A DNA stretch of 64,000 nucleotides from Gluconacetobacter azotocaptans (GTDB lineage Bacteria; Pseudomonadota; Alphaproteobacteria; Acetobacterales; Acetobacteraceae), in contig NZ_JABEQF010000003.1 in the NCBI RefSeq assembly GCF_014174355.1, positions 62,001 to 126,000 of the forward strand, in the 5' to 3' direction. Position 1 is the first letter of the stretch, and each line of letters starts with the position of its first letter. Positions 1-46,322 of the stretch are shown piece after piece. The translations under genes were made by a program, and so were the position numbers. The notes under the pieces are model-generated. The model was not told the origin of the DNA and ran no database searches. It worked only from the letters and a program-made list of their open reading frames with translations.

Positions 1-976
1 ATGCTGCCTTGAGATGGCCTGGGCTATGATGGGCATAGGTATCCTCGACCATCCTCGTATTCGAGTGCCCCAGGAATCCGGCTACCTCCCAAAGCGGGAC
101 ACCTGCCTGAGCCATCCAGGTGGCCGCAGTATGCCGCAGGGTATGGGGCGTCACGCCCTGAAGCCCAGCCCGCTCGGCCGCCGCGCGAAATCCGCGCTTG
201 ATCGAAGCGACCTTGTTGCCGGCCCACTCGATTACCCAGTCGGTCTCCCGGACGGCATGCGCTTCCTGTAGCGCAGCGAGCAAGCCGTCATTGACGGGAA
301 CGCGGGCCCTCCCTTTTGATGTGCGCGGCCTGGTCGGATCACGTAGGTCGATCACCCGGCCATCGAAATCGACCCGTGACCACGGCAGTTCGAGCAATGA
401 TGCGACTCGGGCGCCGGTCCCAAGGGCCAGAATGACGAACAGTCGCATGTGATGGGAACCGCATCCTTTAATGAGAGCCTGCGCTTCATCGCGGGTCAGC
501 CATCGTTCCCTCGGAACGGCGCGCGGAGGCAGGGGGATATGCGGCGCTTCGGCCGTCAGTTTCTCTTTCGCTGCCCACCGCAGCGCCGCACGGAGTGCCT
601 GCATCTCTGTCCGCACAGTACTGGTGCTGATTCCGTTGGCCAGACGATTCCTCAAATAGGCTCGGCATTCCGGGTCGGTGATAGCTTCGACTGGCCTTTC
701 GCCGAACCAGGCACTGACCTGTTTGTGGGCGAACGCCAGCCTGTCCGCGCCCGGCTTGAGGGCATCCCGACGGTCTGCCAGATAAAGGTCCAGAATCTGC
801 GAAATCCCGACTGCCTGCGTCTGCGGCCGAGATAGATCGGCGACATATTTCGAGAGAACTAATTCAGCCGACGCGCGATCCGTGCAGCCCGTAGAGAGGC
901 GTTTGCGCTGGTGATAGATGTGCCATGTGTCGCGCCCTGCGACTCGGCAGAGTCGCGGCTTGTCGTTTGCGGGCAT
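1..976 (-). CDS. int: Phage tyrosine recombinase (integrase), 3' end cut by the window edge
   Basis: Site-specific recombinase expected to integrate and excise the phage. The reading frame is open from ATG at 976 to base 1, giving 325 residues. An N-terminal arm-binding region (about 10-50) is followed by a SAM-like core-binding domain (about 55-150) and a catalytic domain (about 155-320). Catalytic residues are visible: R190 in GTGAR, H278 and R281 in HTLRH, H304 in LGH and the nucleophile Y314 in EDTYAHH, so only a few C-terminal residues are missing. The 5' end overlaps the excisionase-like gene by 118 bases. It is the promoter-distal gene of the leftward operon and points toward the unseen left attachment site. 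Confidence 0.95.
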   Translation of the reverse strand, partial: MPANDKPRLCRVAGRDTWHIYHQRKRLSTGCTDRASAELVLSKYVADLSRPQTQAVGISQILDLYLADRRDALKPGADRLAFAHKQVSAWFGERPVEAITDPECRAYLRNRLANGISTSTVRTEMQALRAALRWAAKEKLTAEAPHIPLPPRAVPRERWLTRDEAQALIKGCGSHHMRLFVILALGTGARVASLLELPWSRVDFDGRVIDLRDPTRPRTSKGRARVPVNDGLLAALQEAHAVRETDWVIEWAGNKVASIKRGFRAAAERAGLQGVTPHTLRHTAATWMAQAGVPLWEVAGFLGHSNTRMVEDTYAHHSPGHLKAA

Positions 977-1972: not shown

Positions 1973-2742
1973 GCCTTCTCTCCCCCCGAGTGGCGAATGG
2001 CGGCAGCGACTCCTGCCTTGTCGATCAGCCACATGCCGGTGGCCTGAAGTGTGTGCAGACCCCAGCGCTCCACGACAAGCGCACACGCCTCCCGCGTCTC
2101 CTGCGCGATCGTGTCGATCTGCGCGGTCAAGGTTGTATTCTCCTCTTTGAGGGACGCGAACGCGGCTTCGGTATCGGCCCCTTCGAAATCGGGATTATCG
2201 GTCCACGAAGTCTTTCCGGGGGACAAACGCTTCCGGTCATCAGCCTCCCGGTTCAGCGCCACGGCACCCCATGACAGATCGACAGCATAGACGCACGTAT
2301 TCCCGAATTGGTCTCGGATCTTCTGGGCCCATTCTATGAGGCTGGCGATCTTCATCATATCGCCCATCGCTGCGGGCAAAACACGTCGCTCGATCTTGCG
2401 CCGATAGGCTTCATCGAACGATATGACCGTCTCGGCAGCTGCCTTCAGGTCTTCTATCTCCCGATCCTTGTCGGCAATCTCGGCGTCGCGGGCAGCGATC
2501 AGGGCTTCGGCGTCAGCATGGCGGACGTATTTCGCGTCGAGTGGCCCATATGACGCATCTGCAACGTCGAAAACCCGTAACTTACCGCTCGCCTCGGCGG
2601 GCGTGCCGACAACCCTGCAAAGAGTAGCAGCAAATCGGCGCACGTCTGGAGCGTGCAGATTCCACTCTCGGCAAAATGCGTCGACTTGATCGCCAGTTAA
2701 ATTGGCCGGAATCAGAAATGATTTCGCATTTTCCATCATCAT
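1969..2742 (-). CDS. Hypothetical phage protein with central coiled coil, about 257 aa
   Basis: Unrecognised. Residues about 80-110 form a charged heptad-like helix (AEIADKDREIEDLKAA), and a second helical stretch lies near the C-terminus (about 200-235). The start is ambiguous: a GTG followed by three ATG codons in tandem overlaps the stop of the cytosine methyltransferase gene, and GCGGAG lies upstream. The proximity to the methyltransferases suggests an accessory role, but nothing in the sequence shows one. Confidence 0.6.
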   Translation of the reverse strand: MMMENAKSFLIPANLTGDQVDAFCREWNLHAPDVRRFAATLCRVVGTPAEASGKLRVFDVADASYGPLDAKYVRHADAEALIAARDAEIADKDREIEDLKAAAETVISFDEAYRRKIERRVLPAAMGDMMKIASLIEWAQKIRDQFGNTCVYAVDLSWGAVALNREADDRKRLSPGKTSWTDNPDFEGADTEAAFASLKEENTTLTAQIDTIAQETREACALVVERWGLHTLQATGMWLIDKAGVAAAIRHSGGEKA

Positions 2743-4406
2743 CACTCCGCAGCGATCACCGCCGCCCGATCGAGGGCGGTGACGCGGTTTGCCTGGGCCA
2801 GCAGGGTGGCCATGCGTTTGGGCACGCTGTTGCCGATCAGGCGCATGGACTCGCTCTTGGTCAGCGCCCGGCGCTGGCCGTCGATCTCGATCATGGCGGG
2901 CAATGTCAGTTCATGCGCGGCGGCCGCCTCGGACGGGTGGAGCATCCGCATCATGACGTCGGACAGGACATGCGGCGCGCCCTGGAACTGGACGGTGACG
3001 ATGCCGAAGCGGGCCAGCGTGGTCAGGGCATGCAGCGGATCGCTTGCCGCCTGGCTCTGCGATCCCTGGCCGTAATATTTGGTCAGGAACGCCGCGACGG
3101 CCGCGACATGGTTGCCGCCGGCGGAAAGGGTCGGCACCGGGTAATGAATGTCGGCCGCCGTGCTGGTGCCGCGCAGCTTCGCCAGGGTGGCCGCCGCGAC
3201 GTATTTCTGGGTGCCGCGCGTCATCAGGGTCGAAGCCGACTGGTCCATGCCGGTGCCGATGACGCCCTCGGCTACGGTGAAATTGTACTGGACCATCCAG
3301 GCGGCGACCAGCGAGTGGTGCTGGATCTGTGTCTGGGCACCGAGCGGCTGCGCCAGGTCCTGCCCGACGCTGGCGCCGCGCCGTTCCTCGACAAATGCCG
3401 GCGCCACGACCGCCAGTTCGCCCCGATGCGCTGCCGTCAGTGTCCGCAGGGGGTCCAGCATGTCATGGACCCGCACGCCACCGGTATGGGTCAGCGGCAA
3501 GATGAACGGCCGAATGAACGGCCGAGGCGATTCCAGCACGAATTTCCGCAGACCAACCGCGATCCGGTGATTGGTGTTCGCAGCCAGCGGACGGGCCCGG
3601 TCGAAAATCGACTGCATCGGGATCGACCAGTCGATGATCGTGTGTGCGCCGACCCAGGGTTTGAGGCGCAGGGCCTTGGCCTGGGCGATCGGGGCATGTG
3701 TACGAGCAGGCCAGTCGATCGGCTGGCCGTCCCGCCGCGCCACGGCGAACCAGCGCCGGCGGCTGGTCGGGATGCCGAAGTCGGCGCAGCACAGATCCCG
3801 GTCCTGGTAATCGTATCCCAGCCCCCGGATATGGGCCATGAACGCCCGATAGGACCGGCCAAGGCGTCGCTTGTCGCGCACCAGCTGCTGCATGTGCCGG
3901 GGCACATGCTCGCCCCGGGCTGCGACGGTGCCGTCCAGCTTGAGCACACGGCCGGTGGTCTTGTCGCGCTTTGCGATCAGGGGCCCCCAGCCGCGTATCT
4001 CGCGGACGTTTTCCATCATAATGACGGTCGGGCGGGTCTTGCCTGCCCAGCGGCAGACCTGCCACGGCAGGGACCGGACGCGTGCGGATCTCGGCGCCGC
4101 GCCCTTGGCCACGGAATGATCGCGGCAGTCGGGCGATGCCCACAGGATATTCACGGGCCGGCCATTGGTCGCAACCAGCGGGTCCACGTCGAAAATATCG
4201 CCGGCGACGTGGCGCGTGTGCGGGAACAGCGCGGCGTGCGCAGCCAGCGCCACCGGGTCGTGGTTGTTGGCAACGTGGACCGGCAGGCCTGCGTCCTCCA
4301 GGCCTGCGCAGGCGCCGCCCAGTCCGGCGAACAGGACCACGTTGATTGCGGTGTCCAGCGACCATTGCATCGGCGCCAGGCGACCGATTGGCGCAACGGC
4401 GTTCAT
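2742..4406 (-). CDS. DNA cytosine-5 methyltransferase, 554 aa
   Basis: Predicted to methylate C5 of cytosine in DNA. Motif I is FAGLGGACAG (26-35). The catalytic motif IV reads SPDC (91-94) rather than the classic PCQ, a form I associate with phage enzymes. Motif VI is ENV (132-134), a QDRD...RRR region matches motif VIII, and motif X is IGNSVP near the C-terminus. The long variable region before motif X would hold the target recognition domain. The ATG at 4406 overlaps the preceding stop by four bases; longer in-frame starts run through the neighbouring genes. No partner endonuclease is adjacent, so the likely role is protecting phage DNA from host restriction or altering methylation in the lysogen. 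Confidence 0.9.
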   Translation of the reverse strand: MNAVAPIGRLAPMQWSLDTAINVVLFAGLGGACAGLEDAGLPVHVANNHDPVALAAHAALFPHTRHVAGDIFDVDPLVATNGRPVNILWASPDCRDHSVAKGAAPRSARVRSLPWQVCRWAGKTRPTVIMMENVREIRGWGPLIAKRDKTTGRVLKLDGTVAARGEHVPRHMQQLVRDKRRLGRSYRAFMAHIRGLGYDYQDRDLCCADFGIPTSRRRWFAVARRDGQPIDWPARTHAPIAQAKALRLKPWVGAHTIIDWSIPMQSIFDRARPLAANTNHRIAVGLRKFVLESPRPFIRPFILPLTHTGGVRVHDMLDPLRTLTAAHRGELAVVAPAFVEERRGASVGQDLAQPLGAQTQIQHHSLVAAWMVQYNFTVAEGVIGTGMDQSASTLMTRGTQKYVAAATLAKLRGTSTAADIHYPVPTLSAGGNHVAAVAAFLTKYYGQGSQSQAASDPLHALTTLARFGIVTVQFQGAPHVLSDVMMRMLHPSEAAAAHELTLPAMIEIDGQRRALTKSESMRLIGNSVPKRMATLLAQANRVTALDRAAVIAAE

Positions 4407-4603
4407 GCCGCGCCCCCATCCACCGGCACCAGCTGGATTTCGACGTGCCTCACCTGGTCCTTGGTGCGGCCGCAGAACCGACAGCGGCCGAGCCAACCCC
4501 AGGAATGGCGGCTGCCTACGCGCTTGTTCGTCACGGGGCTGACGCCGTAGCAGCCCAGAGTCTCGGTGTGCCGGATTTTCCGGATGAGAGGGGTCGCGCT
4601 CAT
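4403..4603 (-). CDS. Small CxxC zinc-finger-like protein, 66 aa (paralogue 1)
   Basis: Unrecognised 66-residue protein lying between the adenine and cytosine methyltransferase genes with ATGA overlaps on both sides. It contains TLGCYGVSPVTN, a VGSRH motif and the segment LGRCRFCGRTKDQVR. It is clearly homologous to the 66-residue protein at 6005-6205 of this operon. The C...CRFC cysteines could bind one zinc ion. Possible roles are a small DNA-binding or methyltransferase accessory factor; neither is shown. Confidence 0.65.
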   Translation of the reverse strand: MSATPLIRKIRHTETLGCYGVSPVTNKRVGSRHSWGWLGRCRFCGRTKDQVRHVEIQLVPVDGGAA

Positions 4604-5460
4604 GCCGCACCCCCGAACCGAAAGGCCATCTGGGCGAGTGCGTCCTGCGTCGCAGGATTGAGCCACAGCGCCTCGACGCGCGGCTGGGCGCCGTCGGCGT
4701 GGGTGCTGGTGGTGACGCGCATCCAGCCGGGCAGCGCGGCGTCGTAGGACCGGTGCGGATAGCCACTGAGGACCACCATGCCGGTCAGCTCGCACAGCGC
4801 GCCCAGCAGCCGTGCATGGTCCTCGGCCGTCAGCTCGTGCACGTAGCCGTGCCCCCGGTGCGACAGGCGGCGGGTAGTCGGCAGATAGGGCGGGTCGACG
4901 TAATGCAGTGTGGTCGGCCGGTCGTGCATCCGCATGACCTCGACCGCATCGCGGTGTTCTATGACGACTGCCTGAAGGCGGTCGACGGTCAGTCGCAATG
5001 CGTCCGGATATGCTGCCCATTCACGCGCCGCAGTGCATTTACCGCGATCGCGATTGCTACCAGACCGAAAGCCGGTCGTTCGATCGGCGCGGCACGCATC
5101 GGACCCGTATCCCATGAATGACCTGACGATCAGTCTGCGGGCGCGCTCGACCGGATCCGCATCGGGCGCCGGCCGGCGACAATCGGCGTCCTCGGCCCGT
5201 GCGAACGGCGTGAGGCGCAGTCCTGCGATCAGGCGTTCCGCCTGGTCGGCGTTACGCAGGACCCGGAACAAGCCGACCACGTCGTCGTCCAGGTCGTTAT
5301 AGACCTCGGCGCCGACCCGCGGCTTGCGCAGGAGGACGGATGCCGCACCGCCGAACGGCTCGACATAGCAATCGTGCGGCGGGAAATGCTCGATCACCCA
5401 CGGGGCAAGGCGCCATTTGCCGCCATGCCAGCGGAGGGCTGGACGTGGGATGGCGTTCAT
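4600..5460 (-). CDS. dam: DNA adenine N6-methyltransferase, Dam/D12 class, 286 aa
   Basis: Predicted adenine-N6 methyltransferase of the D12 class. The N-terminus carries the D12 signature RWHGGK (10-15) and the SAM-binding segment YVEPFGGAASVLL (32-44). The catalytic motif IV DPPY is at 189-192, and a YNDLDD segment near 54 fits motif II. ATG at 5460 overlaps the upstream stop (ATGA). With the cytosine enzyme downstream it forms a two-modification cassette without an evident nuclease. The symbol names the class; target specificity is not determined here. Confidence 0.9.
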   Translation of the reverse strand: MNAIPRPALRWHGGKWRLAPWVIEHFPPHDCYVEPFGGAASVLLRKPRVGAEVYNDLDDDVVGLFRVLRNADQAERLIAGLRLTPFARAEDADCRRPAPDADPVERARRLIVRSFMGYGSDACRADRTTGFRSGSNRDRGKCTAAREWAAYPDALRLTVDRLQAVVIEHRDAVEVMRMHDRPTTLHYVDPPYLPTTRRLSHRGHGYVHELTAEDHARLLGALCELTGMVVLSGYPHRSYDAALPGWMRVTTSTHADGAQPRVEALWLNPATQDALAQMAFRFGGAA

Positions 5461-6008
5461 GCCTGTACTCCCCAAATCTTCGCGTCCTCTGCAAGAATTT
5501 CATCCATTGCGCCCGGAAGCGCGTCCAGGACAGAAAACAGATCCAGCAGCCGCACCAGGCGAGGCTGTGAAGCTCCCGCCTCCCATTCCTTTACGATCTC
5601 GGCCCTGACCCCAACGGCCTTGGCCAGATCCTGCTGGCTCATGCCGGATTTTTCCCGCTCTCGGCGCAGGATCGCAGCAATCGTGCGCGTCAGCGCGACC
5701 TCACGACCGGCGGGTATCTGATGGACCGACCGCACGCGCGTCTTGTCCGGGGCAGGCTCTTGCACCGAGCCCAGCCCGACTGCGTCCAGCAAAAAGCGCT
5801 GTGCTTTCTCAAGCGGCGTCCAAAATGCATCGGGCGGCATAAGTTCCTGATCGTCGCCATCTTCCTGCACGACAATGCAGGTCCAGCCCTGGCTGTGGTC
5901 TTTGTTGTCCTCCCATAGGATGAGCGCCCCGGCGCGTTTGCCGTCCACGATGAGCGTCATCTCGTCGTCGGTTTCAGACGGCACCCAAGCATATCGCTGC
6001 TTGCTCAT
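5457..6008 (-). CDS. XRE-family HTH regulator with N-terminal extension, 183 aa
   Basis: Residues about 105-160 form an XRE-type HTH (IAAILRREREKSGMSQQDLAKAVGV split over two helices, followed by WEAGASQPRL). The N-terminal 100 residues are a compact acidic domain that I do not recognise, containing TLIVDGKRAG and WTCIVVQEDGDD. The layout resembles MqsA- or HigA-like regulators with an extra domain, but no toxin partner is adjacent. It overlaps dam and the next upstream gene by four bases and may regulate the modification cassette. Confidence 0.7.
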   Translation of the reverse strand: MSKQRYAWVPSETDDEMTLIVDGKRAGALILWEDNKDHSQGWTCIVVQEDGDDQELMPPDAFWTPLEKAQRFLLDAVGLGSVQEPAPDKTRVRSVHQIPAGREVALTRTIAAILRREREKSGMSQQDLAKAVGVRAEIVKEWEAGASQPRLVRLLDLFSVLDALPGAMDEILAEDAKIWGVQA

Positions 6009-9211: not shown

Positions 9212-9564
9212 TCGGCACTGAGTGGCAGGCAGGCGATCGCCTCGCGCACGAAGCCGTCCATGCGGTGAAGGGTGGCGACCAGGCCGTAGCGGGCATGTCC
9301 TGGCATGACGGCGCGGGCGACAGCATGCACGACCAGGAATTTCGCTTCCGTGCGGCATGCCGTGCGGTGCTGCGCGGCCTCAAGCCAGCCACGGACCTGC
9401 TCCGCGTTGCCTCGGCTATCCGAAGCGCCGGTCAGGGACGCAATGATCAGCAGCAGGTCGGTGTGGGCAAGCGTGAGCCCGTGACGGCAAGGCAGAAGAC
9501 TGCTGGCCGAAGGCTTGTCGCCGTAGGGCGTGGGCGTTGAGTGTGCGGGCAAGGAAACCTCCAT
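9190..9564 (-). CDS. First gene of the leftward operon, hypothetical, about 124 aa
   Basis: Immediately downstream of pL, the position of N in lambda, although no similarity to an antiterminator is visible. It has helical segments around TDLLLIIASLTGAS and AEQVRGWLEAAQHR, and no domain that I know. The ATG at 9564 would leave a leader of only about 13 bases. An in-frame TTG at 9552 has GGAGG five bases upstream and may be the real start. Confidence 0.55.
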   Translation of the reverse strand: MEVSLPAHSTPTPYGDKPSASSLLPCRHGLTLAHTDLLLIIASLTGASDSRGNAEQVRGWLEAAQHRTACRTEAKFLVVHAVARAVMPGHARYGLVATLHRMDGFVREAIACLPLSADQRSGGQ

Positions 9565-9583
9565 CGCGGGGTGGCGATGGAGA

Positions 9584-9613
9584 ATACTAAGCAATGCCTA
9601 TTTATTTGGTCAA
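9584..9613 (-). promoter_or_regulatory. Leftward early promoter pL
   Basis: On the minus strand, TTGACC (9613-9608), an 18-base spacer and TAGTAT (9589-9584). The spacer and -10 contain an operator. Spacing and -10 are the same as at pR (TTGCAT, 18 bases, TAGTAT), and 17 bases (TAGGCATTGCTTAGTAT) are identical at the two promoters. Confidence 0.8.
9588..9600. promoter_or_regulatory. Operator OL1
   Basis: TAAGCAATGCCTA, overlapping the -10 and spacer of pL. It is the exact reverse complement of the pR-proximal operator at 11896-11908. Confidence 0.8.
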
Positions 9614-9626
9614 TAGGCAATGCCTA
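9614..9626. promoter_or_regulatory. Operator OL2
   Basis: TAGGCAATGCCTA, a perfect palindrome just upstream of the pL -35. Its centre is 26 bp from OL1, the same spacing as between two of the pR operators. Confidence 0.8.
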
Positions 9627-9680
9627 GCGGATAGTTCGTTTTCCAAATTTTGGGCCGCCGATAGAGAAACGGACATGTGG

Positions 9681-11018
9681 TCAGATACGAAACTGCGCCA
9701 ATTGGCTGTGGTGCATGAGGATCACACCGGTGGTGCTAGCGAGCTGCCGCGCCGACGGCGTGAATTCAGCATTTGAGGCAACTAGCGCGACGTGCGCCCT
9801 CTGATGCTCCTTCGCGGCGAATGCTTCTTGGACCGCTTTATTTCCGACTGGCTGGCCGTATAGCTTGCACTGCACTACGATCTTCTGACCTCTGCGCTCC
9901 GCAATGACGTCTGCGCCTTGGTCGCCGCTCGCCTGCGTGACTCGCGCGTCCCAGCCAGCCTGCTGCAACAGAAAAGCGCAGTGTCGTTCATAGTCGATCG
10001 GGTCCATCCTAGGATCGAACGTACGCGGATCGCTCACGAACTGCGGCGATGTTGAGTCCCTCGAAGGTTCAGCAGACGCGATTGCGTCAACGCGTTGCGC
10101 AGTCTGGGCCGCTATTAACGGCCATTGGTCCCCAAGACCGTTGCCAGTAAGAAAGGTGAGAAGACGAGACTCACAGAAGTAACCGATCTCTTTTTGCCAT
10201 TTTGCTAGGTTTATTGTTCCGTAATGGTCCGGGGTTGCAAGTTGCAACTTGCGAATCTGGAGCGCATTAGACTGTCGGTCAATCTCTGTATTTACTATGG
10301 CCAGGGCTCCTTCTAGGCGTCGTCGTGCGATAGCCTTCTTTCGCAGTTGAAGGCCAAGTAACCCCAACGCTCCCATTAGAAGAATAATGAGACCGGTGTG
10401 GCCCCCTGAGTCAGCAGGGGCGGCCGGCGCCGTGCCCGGTGACGGAGTCGATGGTGCCTCCTGTGCGACTCCTTGGTCGCTGTTCCGCCCTGCAGCTGCA
10501 GCCGACGGGATGGCGCCCGAAGAATCGGCAGGCGGCGCGCTTCCTGCTTCTGGCTGAACAGGAGAGACGGCCGGGTCGTCTGTCGATGTGTGTGGCGCCT
10601 GATCCTCGGGCACAGATGGCGACTGTTCGGGAGGGGCCGGCAAGCCAGAGGCTAACTGGTCGGCAAGAAAATAAAGAGGAGGCATGCCGGAGACGGGCGG
10701 ATCGTGGCGGAGCAATTTTATTCCGTCGTGTTCCGAAATCGCCTCCCATGTATCGTTCGGGCTAATCTGGAAGCAACGGCCATCCTGTATCACAAATCGG
10801 ACCCAGCGCATATCGTGCTGGCGCGGGTCTTCCTTGTTCGCCAGTGCCTTGGTTGCGCGAGGATTAACGCATGCATAGATCGGAGCGGTCACGTGATACA
10901 GGTCTTCAGCCAAGGCTGAACTGCTTAACAGGTTGAGGCCTAGGCAGGAAAGAAAGACAGTCAAAACCAGTCTTTTGGCCACAAATATCGTGTGGCAATC
11001 ATCGTTCTGGTCATACAC
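9681..11018 (-). CDS. Membrane-anchored Mrr-type restriction endonuclease-like protein, 445 aa
   Basis: Predicted order: N-terminal signal or anchor (about 13-37, ending SSSALA), small exported domain (about 38-125), Pro/Ser/Ala-rich linker (125-207), membrane helix (about 208-226), basic cytoplasmic stretch and C-terminal Mrr_cat-like domain (about 335-445). The nuclease core shows E344 (DYERH), D370 in GDQGADV and Q383-x-K385 (VVQCK), the PD-(D/E)xK variant found in Mrr-type enzymes. The first codon is GTG; a GTG at codon 13 (10982) would give a more ordinary signal peptide. It lies downstream of cI on the same strand, the place occupied by rexAB in lambda, so it may be expressed in the lysogen and act against other phages or foreign DNA. 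That role is inference. Confidence 0.8.
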   Translation of the reverse strand: MYDQNDDCHTIFVAKRLVLTVFLSCLGLNLLSSSALAEDLYHVTAPIYACVNPRATKALANKEDPRQHDMRWVRFVIQDGRCFQISPNDTWEAISEHDGIKLLRHDPPVSGMPPLYFLADQLASGLPAPPEQSPSVPEDQAPHTSTDDPAVSPVQPEAGSAPPADSSGAIPSAAAAGRNSDQGVAQEAPSTPSPGTAPAAPADSGGHTGLIILLMGALGLLGLQLRKKAIARRRLEGALAIVNTEIDRQSNALQIRKLQLATPDHYGTINLAKWQKEIGYFCESRLLTFLTGNGLGDQWPLIAAQTAQRVDAIASAEPSRDSTSPQFVSDPRTFDPRMDPIDYERHCAFLLQQAGWDARVTQASGDQGADVIAERRGQKIVVQCKLYGQPVGNKAVQEAFAAKEHQRAHVALVASNAEFTPSARQLASTTGVILMHHSQLAQFRI

Positions 11019-11167
11019 GTCCGCAATCCCCCGGTCAGGATACTATCCAACGATTCATGATTACGTTTGGCAGCCTAGATCAGCAAGTGGGGGACTTGGT
11101 AAACACGACCCATTCTGCGGCCTCGTTTTCGAGAGGCTTCCATGCTCGCGCCAGATTACGCTCAATC

Positions 11168-11833
11168 TTACCAAGATTTGGGAAGGTGGAAATCGATCGG
11201 TGCGATCCATTCGATCGGCGCGTCGTAGATGGGTGGCACCATTGGGTTCACCGAGAGGAGAGTGAATGTATCTGAAGCGGCTCCAGCTACGACTGTCTTA
11301 AGGACCATCTGATCATTGGCAAGCTTCGCGACCACGTCCTGACCCAGCATCTTCGCCGATGGAGACTCCCTGCCTGGGAGCCGGATTCCAATCAGCTCGC
11401 CCGGTTTATACCGTGGCAGCATAGATTCGCCCTGCACCCGTAGAACGCGACCAGGGTAATTGAAGAACGGCAGGATAACCTGTTCCTCTTCAAGGCTTTC
11501 GTGGTCGTAAATCACTACCCGATCGGCTGCCCCAACGTAGCCCACAACCTTTGTCCTAGTTCCAAACACTTCGTCCTGGAGCGATTTCACCGCCACTTCA
11601 GACGCGGCTCTACGTGCGGAATGCGGATCACCTAGATCTGTTCCGCATAGCTCTTCGAGCGTGACCTGGTAGAGTTCAGCCAGTGCAGGCAGGCGATCTA
11701 GAGACGGCTTGGATCGCCCAATTTCCCATTGCGCGACTGACGGCCCCGAGATTCCAAGAGCTTTGGCGACCTTGACCTGAGAAAGGCGTGTTGCGCTCCG
11801 CAAGCGTCTAAGTCGTGTGGGCCAATCTTCCAT
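11168..11833 (-). CDS. cI: CI-like phage repressor, XRE HTH plus S24 peptidase domain, 221 aa
   Basis: Lysogeny repressor. Residues about 5-60 are an XRE HTH (LSQVKVAKALGISGPSVAQW), and residues 125-215 an S24/LexA-like domain with the nucleophile S137 in RVQGESM and general base K179 in MVLKTVV. The usual Ala-Gly or Cys-Gly cleavage pair is not obvious in the hinge (VVGYVGAADR, 97-106), so self-cleavage cannot be assumed. ATG at 11833 starts directly at the HTH; an in-frame start at 11902 would run through the operators. Five 13-bp operators occur at pR and pL. Confidence 0.92.
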   Translation of the reverse strand: MEDWPTRLRRLRSATRLSQVKVAKALGISGPSVAQWEIGRSKPSLDRLPALAELYQVTLEELCGTDLGDPHSARRAASEVAVKSLQDEVFGTRTKVVGYVGAADRVVIYDHESLEEEQVILPFFNYPGRVLRVQGESMLPRYKPGELIGIRLPGRESPSAKMLGQDVVAKLANDQMVLKTVVAGAASDTFTLLSVNPMVPPIYDAPIEWIAPIDFHLPKSW

Positions 11834-11848
11834 TCCGGCAATTTGCAC

Positions 11849-11861
11849 TAGGCGATGACTA
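11849..11861. promoter_or_regulatory. Operator OR3
   Basis: TAGGCGATGACTA, closest to cI and most diverged from consensus. Its centre lies 21 bp (two helical turns) from OR2. The position suits autoregulation of cI. Confidence 0.65.
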
Positions 11862-11869
11862 CATGCGCC

Positions 11870-11882
11870 TAGCGTTTGCCTA
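11870..11882. promoter_or_regulatory. Operator OR2
   Basis: TAGCGTTTGCCTA, ending next to the pR -35. Its centre lies 26 bp from OR1, the spacing also found between OL1 and OL2. Confidence 0.7.
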
Positions 11883-11912
11883 TTGCATTGGATGATAGGC
11901 ATTGCTTAGTAT
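11883..11912 (+). promoter_or_regulatory. Rightward early promoter pR
   Basis: TTGCAT (11883-11888), an 18-base spacer and TAGTAT (11907-11912), followed within seven bases by the ATG of the Cro-like gene, so the transcript would start at or very near the initiation codon. Confidence 0.8.
11896..11908. promoter_or_regulatory. Operator OR1
   Basis: TAGGCATTGCTTA within the spacer and -10 of pR, identical to OL1 on the opposite strand. Confidence 0.8.
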
Positions 11913-11918
11913 GTATCC

Positions 11919-12170
11919 ATGATGAACGAAACCGTCAGGCGAGTGATTGATGCTGCTGGAGGCCCTACGGCGCTCGCTCGGCACCTGGGTATCAAAATAC
12001 CATCGCTCTATTCATGGCGCCGAATCCCGGCCGAGAGGGTGAATGCCGTCCATGCGGTTACGGGCATCCCCCGGGAGGACTTGCGCCCGGATCTGTTCGC
12101 TCCTGGGCAGTATCCGGTCGACTCGTCCCGCGCCTCGAAGAGCCTTGCACGAAGGGAGATCGCGGCATGA
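11919..12170 (+). CDS. Cro/YdaS-like regulator, 83 aa, probably leaderless mRNA
   Basis: Short HTH protein divergent from cI. The helix pair GGPTALARHLGIKIPSLYSW and the following GIPREDLRPDLF match the Cro/YdaS antitoxin-like family, expected to compete with CI at the operators. Two ATGs are in tandem (11919, 11922). With the pR -10 ending at 11912, the mRNA would begin at about the first ATG and no ribosome site is possible. The last 20 residues are polar. Confidence 0.85.
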   Translation: MMNETVRRVIDAAGGPTALARHLGIKIPSLYSWRRIPAERVNAVHAVTGIPREDLRPDLFAPGQYPVDSSRASKSLARREIAA

Positions 12171-12256
12171 GCGATAAATTGGATATTGAATTGCCGGCCG
12201 ATTGCCCAGTTTGTGCGGGCAATGCTGCAGGTGCGGAGGAAGGGATCGCGGCATGA
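12167..12256 (+). CDS. Tiny CxxC protein, 29 aa
   Basis: The ATG at 12167 overlaps the cro-like stop and the frame ends in an ATGA overlap with the next gene. The product contains LPADCPVCAGN, a single CxxC. Coupling at both ends is the main support; function unknown. Confidence 0.45.
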   Translation: MSDKLDIELPADCPVCAGNAAGAEEGIAA

Positions 12257-15736: not shown

Positions 15737-15950
15737 CGACCTGCTGACACTCCGGGGTTTTTATTCAGAACTGAATAAAGACATTCGCGCAGCCGGAAGC
15801 GCATCGCAGTTCGCGCGCGATTGCGGTGTGAGCCCCCAGGCGGTCCTGAACGTCCAGAACACGAACCGGCGCGGCAGTGACGAACTGCTGGGCAAAATGG
15901 GCTGGGAGCGCGTCGGACGGTACCGGCGCAAGCGGACGCCTTCGGCATGA
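15729..15950 (+). CDS. Small HTH protein, 73 aa
   Basis: Residues 8-50 fit a Cro-type HTH (AGSASQFARDCGVSPQAVLN), with a basic tail. It overlaps both neighbours (ATGA into the helicase gene). The palindrome TTTATTCAGAACTGAATAAA (15760-15779) lies inside this gene near its start, so it may be autoregulated. Confidence 0.55.
   Translation: MADDLLTLRGFYSELNKDIRAAGSASQFARDCGVSPQAVLNVQNTNRRGSDELLGKMGWERVGRYRRKRTPSA
15760..15779. promoter_or_regulatory. Perfect 20-bp palindrome
   Basis: TTTATTCAGAACTGAATAAA has nine-base arms around a two-base centre. It is AT-rich against a GC-rich background and located within the first codons of the small HTH gene upstream of the helicase. It resembles the sites at 13063 and 13429. 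Confidence 0.5.
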
Positions 15951-17494
15951 ACCACATTCCGGAAAAGGTGCGCTCGCCCTGGGGCGCGGCGCTGCGCGAG
16001 CGGCCATCGAATGTCGCCGCCGAACAGGCGCTGATCGGTGCCCTTCTGGTGAACAGCGCCAAGGCCGTGCCGCTTGTCGAGGAAATCATCGAGCCGGAGC
16101 ATTTCTATGTTCCGCTCTACGGCGAAATGTATGCCGCCATCCGACGCCTGGTCCAGGCCGGGCGCGTGGCGGACCCGACCGTCATTTCCCCGATCTTCCG
16201 CCACCATGACGCGTTGGACGGCGATGATATCGGCAAGGTCATGGGCGAACTGATGATGGCGTTCGTCGGCTGGCCGACCGTTCCGGCCTACGCCACGGCC
16301 GTACGCGAGGCATGGCTAATGCGGGCGCTGTTCGATCTGTGCACCGAGGCGACCGATCTGTGCTGTCGCCCGGGCGAGCAAACGGCTGAGGACATCCGCG
16401 ACCAGGTCGAAACCGGGCTGCTGCGGATCGCGCAGGGATGCGGCGAGAGTGATCCGCTGGTACCGCTGGATGAGGCGATAGGCACGGCTGTCGCCAACGC
16501 GCGCGAGGCCGCGCAGCGCGAGGACGGAATTTCCGGCGTGACCTGGGGATACAAGGCCCTCGACCGCATGACGGCAGGTCTCCATCGCGGGGATCTGACG
16601 CTGCTGGGCGCCCGACCTGCCATGGGCAAGACTGCGCTGGGGCTCGGTATCGCCGCACGCGCGGCAGCGGCCGGCAACCGTGTGCTGTTCTGGTCCGGTG
16701 AGATGCGGGCCGAGCAACTTGGCGCACGGGCCGGGGCCGCATGGGCTGGTCTCTCCACGCTGTCGGTCTTCACCGGGCGACGATGGGATATCCCGGAGGA
16801 TATCGTGAGCGGCCGCCGCGAGGAACTGGCCGATTACCAATGGCGCGATCTCGAAGATGGGCAGCGCGCGGCCGCTTCGCTGCCACTCGTGATCGACCAC
16901 CGTGCGGGTATCACCGTGGCGCAGCTCCGGGCACGCGCGCGCCGCATGGCGCGGCAAAAGCAGGGCCTTGATCTGATCGTGGCTGATTACATTGCCTTGA
17001 TCAGGGGAAGCGATGCCCTGCGGCGCGGCGCCAACCTGAACGAGATTCTCTCAGAAGTCAGTCTGGATCTGAAAAACCTGGCATCGGAACTGCACATCCC
17101 TGTCCTGTCCCTATCGCAGCTCAGTCGTGAATCGGCGAAGCGCGACGACAAGACGCCGCGCCTGGATGACCTGCGCGACAGCGGTGCACTGGAACAGAAT
17201 GCCGCCACGGTGATTTTCCTGCATCGCGAGCATTATTACCTGTCCAAGATCGCCGATGACGGAGAAATCCCGCGCCGGGTGAACGAGAGCCGCGCCGACT
17301 GGGAGGCGCGTTGTGCCCGGATCGTGGAAATGACCCGTGAGAGCAAGGGCAAGGCCGATATCATCATCGGCAAGAACAGGCACGGCCCGACCGGCGCATG
17401 CCGGATGCAATTCGACGACAATACCACATGGTTCCGCGACCTGGGCGAAGATCCTCGGTCGCCGGCATGGATCATGACTGGACCGGAGTTCTGA
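15947..17494 (+). CDS. dnaB: DnaB-type replicative DNA helicase, 515 aa
   Basis: Hexameric helicase unwinding DNA at the phage fork. The N-terminal DnaB domain (about 15-160; AAEQALIGALLVN) is followed by the RecA-like domain with Walker A GARPAMGKTA (221-230), a Walker B-like LDLIVADYIALI segment and the DnaB motif LSQLSRESAKRDDKTPRLDD. It follows small HTH proteins and precedes a replication-type protein, as in phage replication modules. The symbol is used in the family sense; this is the phage copy. Start ATG overlaps the upstream stop. Confidence 0.95.
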   Translation: MNHIPEKVRSPWGAALRERPSNVAAEQALIGALLVNSAKAVPLVEEIIEPEHFYVPLYGEMYAAIRRLVQAGRVADPTVISPIFRHHDALDGDDIGKVMGELMMAFVGWPTVPAYATAVREAWLMRALFDLCTEATDLCCRPGEQTAEDIRDQVETGLLRIAQGCGESDPLVPLDEAIGTAVANAREAAQREDGISGVTWGYKALDRMTAGLHRGDLTLLGARPAMGKTALGLGIAARAAAAGNRVLFWSGEMRAEQLGARAGAAWAGLSTLSVFTGRRWDIPEDIVSGRREELADYQWRDLEDGQRAAASLPLVIDHRAGITVAQLRARARRMARQKQGLDLIVADYIALIRGSDALRRGANLNEILSEVSLDLKNLASELHIPVLSLSQLSRESAKRDDKTPRLDDLRDSGALEQNAATVIFLHREHYYLSKIADDGEIPRRVNESRADWEARCARIVEMTRESKGKADIIIGKNRHGPTGACRMQFDDNTTWFRDLGEDPRSPAWIMTGPEF

Positions 17495-46223: not shown

Positions 46224-46245
46224 GTGTATAACGTCTTGAAAAAGC

Positions 46246-46290
46246 TGGTCGGAGTGAGAGGATTCGAACCTCCGGCCCCTGCGTCCCGAA
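46246..46290. other. Candidate attachment site (tRNA 3' end)
   Basis: Phage-to-host boundary inferred from the last phage gene (46168), the terminator and the intact tRNA-Pro. The 3' part of the tRNA (T arm to CCA) is the usual crossover sequence. The matching repeat should lie left of base 1, beyond int, and cannot be seen here. Confidence 0.45.
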
Positions 46291-46322
46291 CACAGTGCTC
46301 TACCAGGCTGAGCTACACTCCG
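46246..46322 (-). tRNA. tRNA-Pro (anticodon CGG)
   Basis: On the minus strand the acceptor CGGAGTG pairs perfectly with CACTCCG. The D arm GCTC...GAGC, anticodon stem CTGTG/CGCAG with loop TTCGGGA (anticodon CGG) and T arm with TTCGAAT are all present. Discriminator A and an encoded CCA close the 3' end at 46246. Its 3' end faces the prophage, so it is the probable integration target. Confidence 0.95.

Follow-up and report, generated by a model that had tools for sequence, protein, structure and literature searches.

What is a nuclease that appears to be built into the inner membrane doing beside the repressor gene of a lysogenic phage? The question is raised by a gene in the window, a 64,000-nucleotide stretch of DNA from Gluconacetobacter azotocaptans, of the family Acetobacteraceae (contig 3 of a 4.13 Mb genome), whose predicted product joins an exported N-terminal domain to a cytoplasmic Mrr-type nuclease. 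The reading favored here, to which we give a probability of about one half, is that the gene encodes a lysogen-expressed superinfection-exclusion nuclease that would cut phage DNA at its entry through the inner membrane.

The gene belongs to a 46.4 kb prophage inserted in tRNA-Pro, the end of which is directly repeated over 58 bp at the two borders. The prophage gene set includes an integrase, a leftward operon, an immunity region, DnaB and virion genes, the last comprising a gpA-type terminase, a lambda-type portal, capsid E, a tail sheath and baseplate J. The features that frame the locus are these (window coordinates):

-130..976 (window part 1..976), minus strand: integrase (gene scan past the window edge)
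9558..9583, minus strand: hairpin directly behind the leftward promoter-like site (terminator scan; sister-prophage comparison)
9584..9600, minus strand: operator-like site and TAGTAT hexamer of a putative leftward promoter, OL side (motif search, promoter scan)
9681..11018, minus strand: gene for the predicted membrane-anchored Mrr nuclease, 445 aa, GTG start (ORF call, Pfam, hydropathy, alignment)
11168..11902, minus strand: cI-type repressor with HTH and S24 peptidase (Pfam, PHROGs)
11896..11912, plus strand: operator-like site beside cro, OR side (motif search)
11919..12170, plus strand: Cro-like (YdaS/P22_Cro) regulator (Pfam, PHROGs)
15947..17494, plus strand: DnaB (Pfam)
46236..46293, unstranded: attR, the 58-bp repeat inside tRNA-Pro (repeat; other copy at window position -207)

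The cI and Cro-like genes are divergent, and 149 nt separate the cI stop from the start of the nuclease gene on the same strand, with no terminator-like site reported between them on that strand. A 17-bp sequence, TAGGCATTGCTTAGTAT, is found exactly at 9584-9600 (minus strand) and 11896-11912 (plus strand). Allowing three mismatches, the window holds two such sites against 0.02 expected; allowing one, the whole genome holds two and the reversed control pattern has none. When the two places are compared, both sites and a flanking piece match in inverted orientation, over 18 and 10 bp. The pair brackets the region and thus places the cI and nuclease genes between OR-like and OL-like sites, in keeping with the first-pass annotation, which had put the nuclease in a rexAB-like position: downstream of cI, on the cI strand and before the leftward operator. 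In lambda, cI and rexAB likewise lie on one strand between operators. The slot beside cI in prophage immunity regions is where lambda rexAB and Salmonella bstA are found (PMC8585504). The nuclease may thus be expressed in the lysogen along with cI. The hairpin at 9558-9583 (minus strand), 96% conserved in a sister prophage, is possibly the end of the cI-nuclease transcript; over the region as a whole, promoter and terminator scans gave results near chance, the terminator scan not exceeding it.

Related phages fill this slot differently. Seven immunity regions whose cI is related were compared: the slot gene is lipoprotein-like in six and encodes a small hydrophobic zinc-ribbon-like protein in one. 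The latter region belongs to a sister prophage from within the genus (G007, L179), where window region 9583-12237 is swapped for another immunity cassette; the 94-residue product of its slot gene (L179 8152-8436) begins with a zinc-ribbon-like stretch (E = 6.7e-4, short of the cut-off) and has a hydrophobic segment. The other six are IMG/VR records (L180-L185) with a cI 58-59% identical to that of the window, and their slot genes, lipoprotein-like by the N-terminus, are of three types: L180 and L182-L184 share one (LPAM_1 at 0.067 in L180 and 0.0013 in L182, both under the cut-off), the L181 gene is lipoprotein-like by eye, and that of L185, on the opposite strand, matches BamE at 9.4e-5, just under the cut-off. 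By a plain hydropathy yardstick, which 29 of 181 ORFs in these regions pass, four of five slot gene types pass, the window's included, and the L180/L182 type fails. Envelope proteins thus seem to be what this slot accommodates. The nuclease gene itself is absent from all 13 congener genomes. That sister prophages do without it would fit a gene with no selected function, or a nuclease of the lytic cycle; this is scarcely credible for a gene that lies within the immunity region on the same strand as cI and has full-length relatives (48-57% identity) in which every catalytic residue is retained.

The protein is laid out as follows, from its N-terminus to its C-terminus:

10908..11018, minus strand: putative export signal or signal anchor, residues 1-37 (hydropathy; ALA-ED site by eye)
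10656..10907, minus strand: predicted exported domain, residues 38-121 (alignment and structure model)
10407..10655, minus strand: Pro/Ala-rich linker, residues 122-204 (disordered in the model, pLDDT <50 over most of 124-204)
10347..10406, minus strand: membrane helix, residues 205-224 (hydropathy and model)
10011..10346, minus strand: helical cytoplasmic pre-domain, residues 225-336, with a motif around YG..KW..E..YF common to the family (alignment and model)
9693..10010, minus strand: Mrr_cat nuclease, residues 337-442, with E344, D370, Q383 and K385 (Pfam and alignment)

The start codon is not certain, a second GTG lying 12 codons downstream of the called one. The Pfam scan matches Mrr_cat (PF04471) to residues 337-442 (E = 1.6e-24, 86.7 bits against a cut-off of 21) and finds no family in residues 1-336. 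Hydropathy marks two segments, 8-26 (score 1.63) and 205-223 (1.74), and the stretch between them is predicted to be exported; the first ends in ALA-ED, which by eye resembles a signal-peptidase site. Positive charges flanking a membrane helix mark its cytoplasmic side (the positive-inside rule), and the RKKAIARRR run directly after the 205-223 helix would thus place the nuclease in the cytoplasm. Hydropathy and charge together predict a protein that crosses the inner membrane once, and the first-pass layout of exported N-terminal domain, linker, one helix and cytoplasmic Mrr domain agrees with Pfam, hydropathy and the structure model. The catalytic residues named there are also in place: when 21 proteins, among them that of the window, are aligned, E344, D370 and K385 do not vary and Q383 hardly does. 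Only over residues ~210-445, a range that covers the nuclease domain, is the full-length model confident, and the solved structures that match this half best are AF1548 (E = 3.9e-6) and MspJI (3e-4). The Mrr_cat domain is predicted to be an active nuclease.

The exported domain is less readily placed. C50 and C82 are its sole invariant columns, conserved in 16 of 16 relatives, the pattern that a disulfide would give. Its best model, built from three sequences, is a small beta-barrel with helices at pLDDT 81 (the other four models reach 60-73). Of the first-pass proposal to model residues 38-125, the small barrel is what was obtained; the fold search gave nothing significant (0 of 398 matches at E up to 0.001). 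SH3 domains recur among the non-significant matches (E about 0.4-1.8, TM-score 0.4-0.6 depending on target length), so the domain is at best weakly SH3-like. A profile search of the Protein Data Bank gave nothing significant either (best E = 0.4), and Pfam, NCBIfam and PHROGs hold no family name for it. Over 142 alphaproteobacterial genomes, the domain profile matches the window's own genome only, which makes the domain look narrow. In another genome of the host family, the same two-cysteine domain is followed by a membrane helix and TerB_N/TerB_C (L063 4442-7435), a second kind of inner part; the domain thus behaves as a module of its own. In the absence of a significant structural match, the case for wall contact rests on a sibling phage protein, L089, which carries PG_binding_1 in the same place. 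That the exported part is a domain, as first suggested, is in line with both its appearance and this sibling.

The closest relatives are mostly found on mobile DNA. In a tree of 51 pre-domain-plus-nuclease sequences, the window protein groups with relatives from Asaia and Tanticharoenia, a second Tanticharoenia copy (L040) and two viral proteins (L088, L089) with support of 98/100, and five of these six clade members are on phages or beside an integrase, L040 being chromosomal. The Asaia astilbis prophage relative is full-length at 48% identity, in the gene order Cro-like gene, HTH repressor lacking S24, nuclease, HTH_17 gene, integrase; prophage carriage and a place behind a repressor thus recur here. 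In L088 and L089, the nuclease lies in a reversed island within the tail module, adjoining the tape-measure gene (E = 4e-74 and 5e-96); the L088 gene is broken by an in-frame stop, and in L089 the two membrane helices are separated by PG_binding_1 (E = 1.6e-7), which endolysin families also match. Set against the two-cysteine domain, this means that two unlike exported domains feed the same pre-domain and nuclease; by its sequence match, one of the two kinds belongs to a known wall-binding family. GenBank phages and plasmids yielded no full-length kin: nine phage and 248 plasmid records match, none over more than 80% of the query.

The Tanticharoenia sakaeratensis relative, full-length at 54% identity, brings in another reading. 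The start of its gene overlaps an AbiJ-like gene (Abi_C E = 2.8e-21; PADLOC AbiJ 1.3e-18), with an integrase 1.2 kb past the latter and two PIN-domain genes behind the nuclease. The protein could act by abortive infection: the exported domain would sense envelope damage and free the nuclease to act on the host chromosome, so that the cell dies before the phage matures. Besides the AbiJ-like neighbor, it would suit a nuclease with no visible sequence-recognition domain and a slot that in lambda holds an abortive system, RexAB (PMC8585504). Yet the membrane tether should hold the nuclease off the nucleoid, and SNIPE, which comes closest in overall plan, gives direct protection, with toxicity only once the tether is lost (PMC13190303). 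Abortive infection thus seems unlikely, and exclusion at the point of entry remains the preferred reading.

Beyond this clade, a profile search of viral contigs returned 82 relatives, of which 80 were kept; clustering at 90% identity gave 68 clusters, L158 having been dropped beforehand as lacking the motif. A membrane helix precedes the nuclease in 49 of the 68 clusters, against a hydropathy yardstick of 29 in 181 ORFs. As a family-wide rule, the helix was rejected: it is missing in the remaining 19 clusters, in five of six plasmid relatives and in the copy on a Rhodovastum phage-plasmid (L109). That plasmid, RHOApg, is a phage-plasmid by annotation (capsid, terminase, tail, ParA, RepA), and its helix-less relative is a lone reversed gene in the tail module. 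Elsewhere on RHOApg (L167 41176-41547), a beta-lactamase label on a hypothetical protein beside a holin gene looks like a mis-call. Two viral genes fuse Mrr to FtsK_gamma (L134 7242-8486 and L153 6648-8588), one with two membrane helices and one with the FtsK ATPase part. For an integrase search, the authors selected 45 records from among the 80 viral ones; of the 19 that have an integrase, eight carry the nuclease within 3 kb of it (2.3 expected, P = 0.00045), and five of these eight copies have the membrane helix.

The family also lives on chromosomes. Relatives are present in 37 of 150 host-family genomes, many in ordinary-looking chromosomal places, with an integrase within 3 kb at at least one place (G100:C88) and within 10 kb at at least one further, across 24 genomes. 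The catalytic set is kept in 27 of 41 rows from these loci. Among 16 exported-domain proteins, the nuclease is intact in six and recognizable but degenerate in seven; of the rest, one cannot be called (L064), one has TerB parts instead (L063) and one ends after the helix (L065). The family is thus a chromosome resident as well, some copies having lost the nuclease. In three genomes (L043, L045, L051), membrane-Mrr genes that lack the exported domain share, by eye, one conserved position flanked by an ahpF-like and a pqiA-like gene, and other chromosomal relatives lie near cobalamin or folate genes. Four paralogues pair the exported domain with a degenerate nuclease (L047, L050, L058, L061), two of them adjoining cobalamin-like genes, an arrangement that hints at a conserved gene of the chromosome serving a different role. 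In L052 (1377-4272), a membrane-Mrr gene has a C5 methylase gene and one for an EcoRII-type restriction enzyme at a distance of ~3.4 kb.

Such residency is what would be expected of a host-family stress or DNA-uptake nuclease that phages picked up by chance and that acts on host, plasmid or transforming DNA; the spread over 37 genomes, the shared ahpF-like place and the degenerate paralogues all speak for it. It nevertheless appears improbable for the window gene, because five of the six members of its clade are on phages or linked to an integrase and because 80 of 80 viral copies have E344, D370, Q/E383 and K385, a count to be read with the fact that the search patterns demanded part of the set, the D370 region, in part of them. 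The first-pass annotation had named homologues that are mainly housekeeping genes outside prophages as telling against its proposal: many relatives are indeed chromosomal, but those closest to the window protein are not mainly so.

The leftward operon (minus strand) encodes a C5-cytosine methyltransferase (2742-4766) and a D12 N6-adenine methyltransferase (4600-5475). E. coli Mrr is a methylation-dependent enzyme, and the window protein might by analogy be half of a restriction system, in which the nuclease reads methylation and the two methyltransferases mark the prophage DNA. The sister prophage, however, lacks the nuclease and yet keeps the C5 gene, at 79% DNA identity over 2733-4411, and its genome has no D12 gene. 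A pairing of nuclease and D12 methyltransferase as a rule was rejected: none of 12 records or genomes searched has a D12 gene, some virus records possibly being fragments, and these 12 include the two-copy Tanticharoenia-like genome and the Asaia prophage. A half restriction system is therefore highly improbable.

In the favored reading, superinfection exclusion, the lysogen would make the nuclease from the prophage alongside the cI repressor. The N-terminus would be exported and the chain would cross the inner membrane once, with the exported domain kept in the periplasm on its long flexible linker, where it would probably make contact, at the sites of phage entry, with the cell wall or with some partner; a tether of ~80 residues should be long enough to reach the wall. 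The Mrr nuclease would hang from the inner face of the membrane, so that incoming phage DNA threading through would meet it and be cut. The host chromosome and the prophage would be spared either because they are absent from the entry site or because the enzyme stays inactive until the outer domain senses entry. The sequence analysis itself gives the order of the domains, the conservation of the catalytic residues, the setting in prophage and operon, the operators and the mobility; topology, lysogen expression, nuclease activity, wall contact and the cutting of incoming DNA are what we infer. If this is how it works, the prophage excludes by position, cutting any DNA that enters via the membrane, and no sequence or modification mark is needed. 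This principle has been shown only recently, for SNIPE; the window protein would bring it to a second, unrelated protein family, one that is phage-encoded, and exchange of the outward domain could set which entry events are seen. A wider and more tentative proposal, possible though held with less confidence than exclusion by this one protein, is that phages carry a widespread, unnamed class of single-protein entry-site nucleases with a swappable exported envelope domain (two-cysteine SH3-like or PG_binding_1), a helix and Mrr, of separate origin from SNIPE and Zorya, which would cut rival genomes at injection from the slot of exclusion lipoproteins. With a recent precedent for the principle and a chromosomal life for the family, the function guessed in the first-pass annotation is still the most likely.

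How does the protein compare with known systems? E. coli Mrr-type type IV restriction enzymes have an N-terminal Mrr DNA-binding domain. Mrr and other type IV enzymes, like the PADLOC candidate PDC-S02 (a candidate model only), share the Mrr_cat domain with the window protein, whose residues 1-336 show no N-terminal Mrr DNA-binding domain in Pfam and hold the exported domain and the helix instead. Lambda RexAB and Salmonella BstA are prophage defense genes beside cI that are expressed in the lysogen (PMC8585504) and occupy the same slot; Pfam and PHROGs scans placed the window protein in no RexA, RexB or BstA family. The Ltp-type exclusion lipoproteins of Streptococcus thermophilus phages are expressed from the lysogeny module in the prophage state, are membrane-tethered and block DNA injection (PMC3952083); they have no nuclease, but phages related to the window's carry lipoprotein-like slot genes.

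None of the openly licensed papers among the matches listed describes a membrane-anchored Mrr nuclease with an exported domain. The claim that no described system has exactly this layout stands as far as family, order of domains and exported domain go, and falls for the principle: SNIPE (PD-lambda-1) is anchored in the inner membrane, cleaves lambda DNA as the phage injects it and becomes toxic once the tether is lost (PMC13190303), so that a membrane-held anti-injection nuclease is not without precedent. SNIPE resembles the layout predicted here in being a single protein with one helix, a periplasmic N-terminus, a cytoplasmic middle part, which binds DNA, and a C-terminal nuclease, and its N-terminal regions are diverse (PMC13190303). 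However, it combines DUF4041 with GIY-YIG and has no large exported domain, whereas the window protein has Mrr_cat, another pre-domain and an exported part of ~165 residues, with neither DUF4041 nor GIY-YIG among its Pfam hits to E = 0.1; the cI-linked prophage slot is a feature of the window gene.

Zorya couples a peptidoglycan-binding periplasmic domain to nucleases (PMC11890865). In type I, the peptidoglycan-binding domain of ZorB, the inner-membrane complex and the Mrr-like nuclease of ZorD all recall the window protein, and the Mrr domain of ZorD is the top PADLOC match of the window's own. This match, however, spans only positions 947-1058 of the 1071 in the ZorD1 profile, leaving out the SNF2 helicase part, which the window protein lacks, and the neighbors scanned, which cover the small ORFs in part, are phage regulators, replication genes and unknowns, with no ZorAB motor genes among them. 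Zorya is a multi-gene system with the ZorA/ZorB proton motor and an SNF2 helicase, whereas the window has one protein, of which only the ~110-residue Mrr domain matches. The best reading of these comparisons is that the window protein would work like SNIPE or Zorya while belonging to neither.
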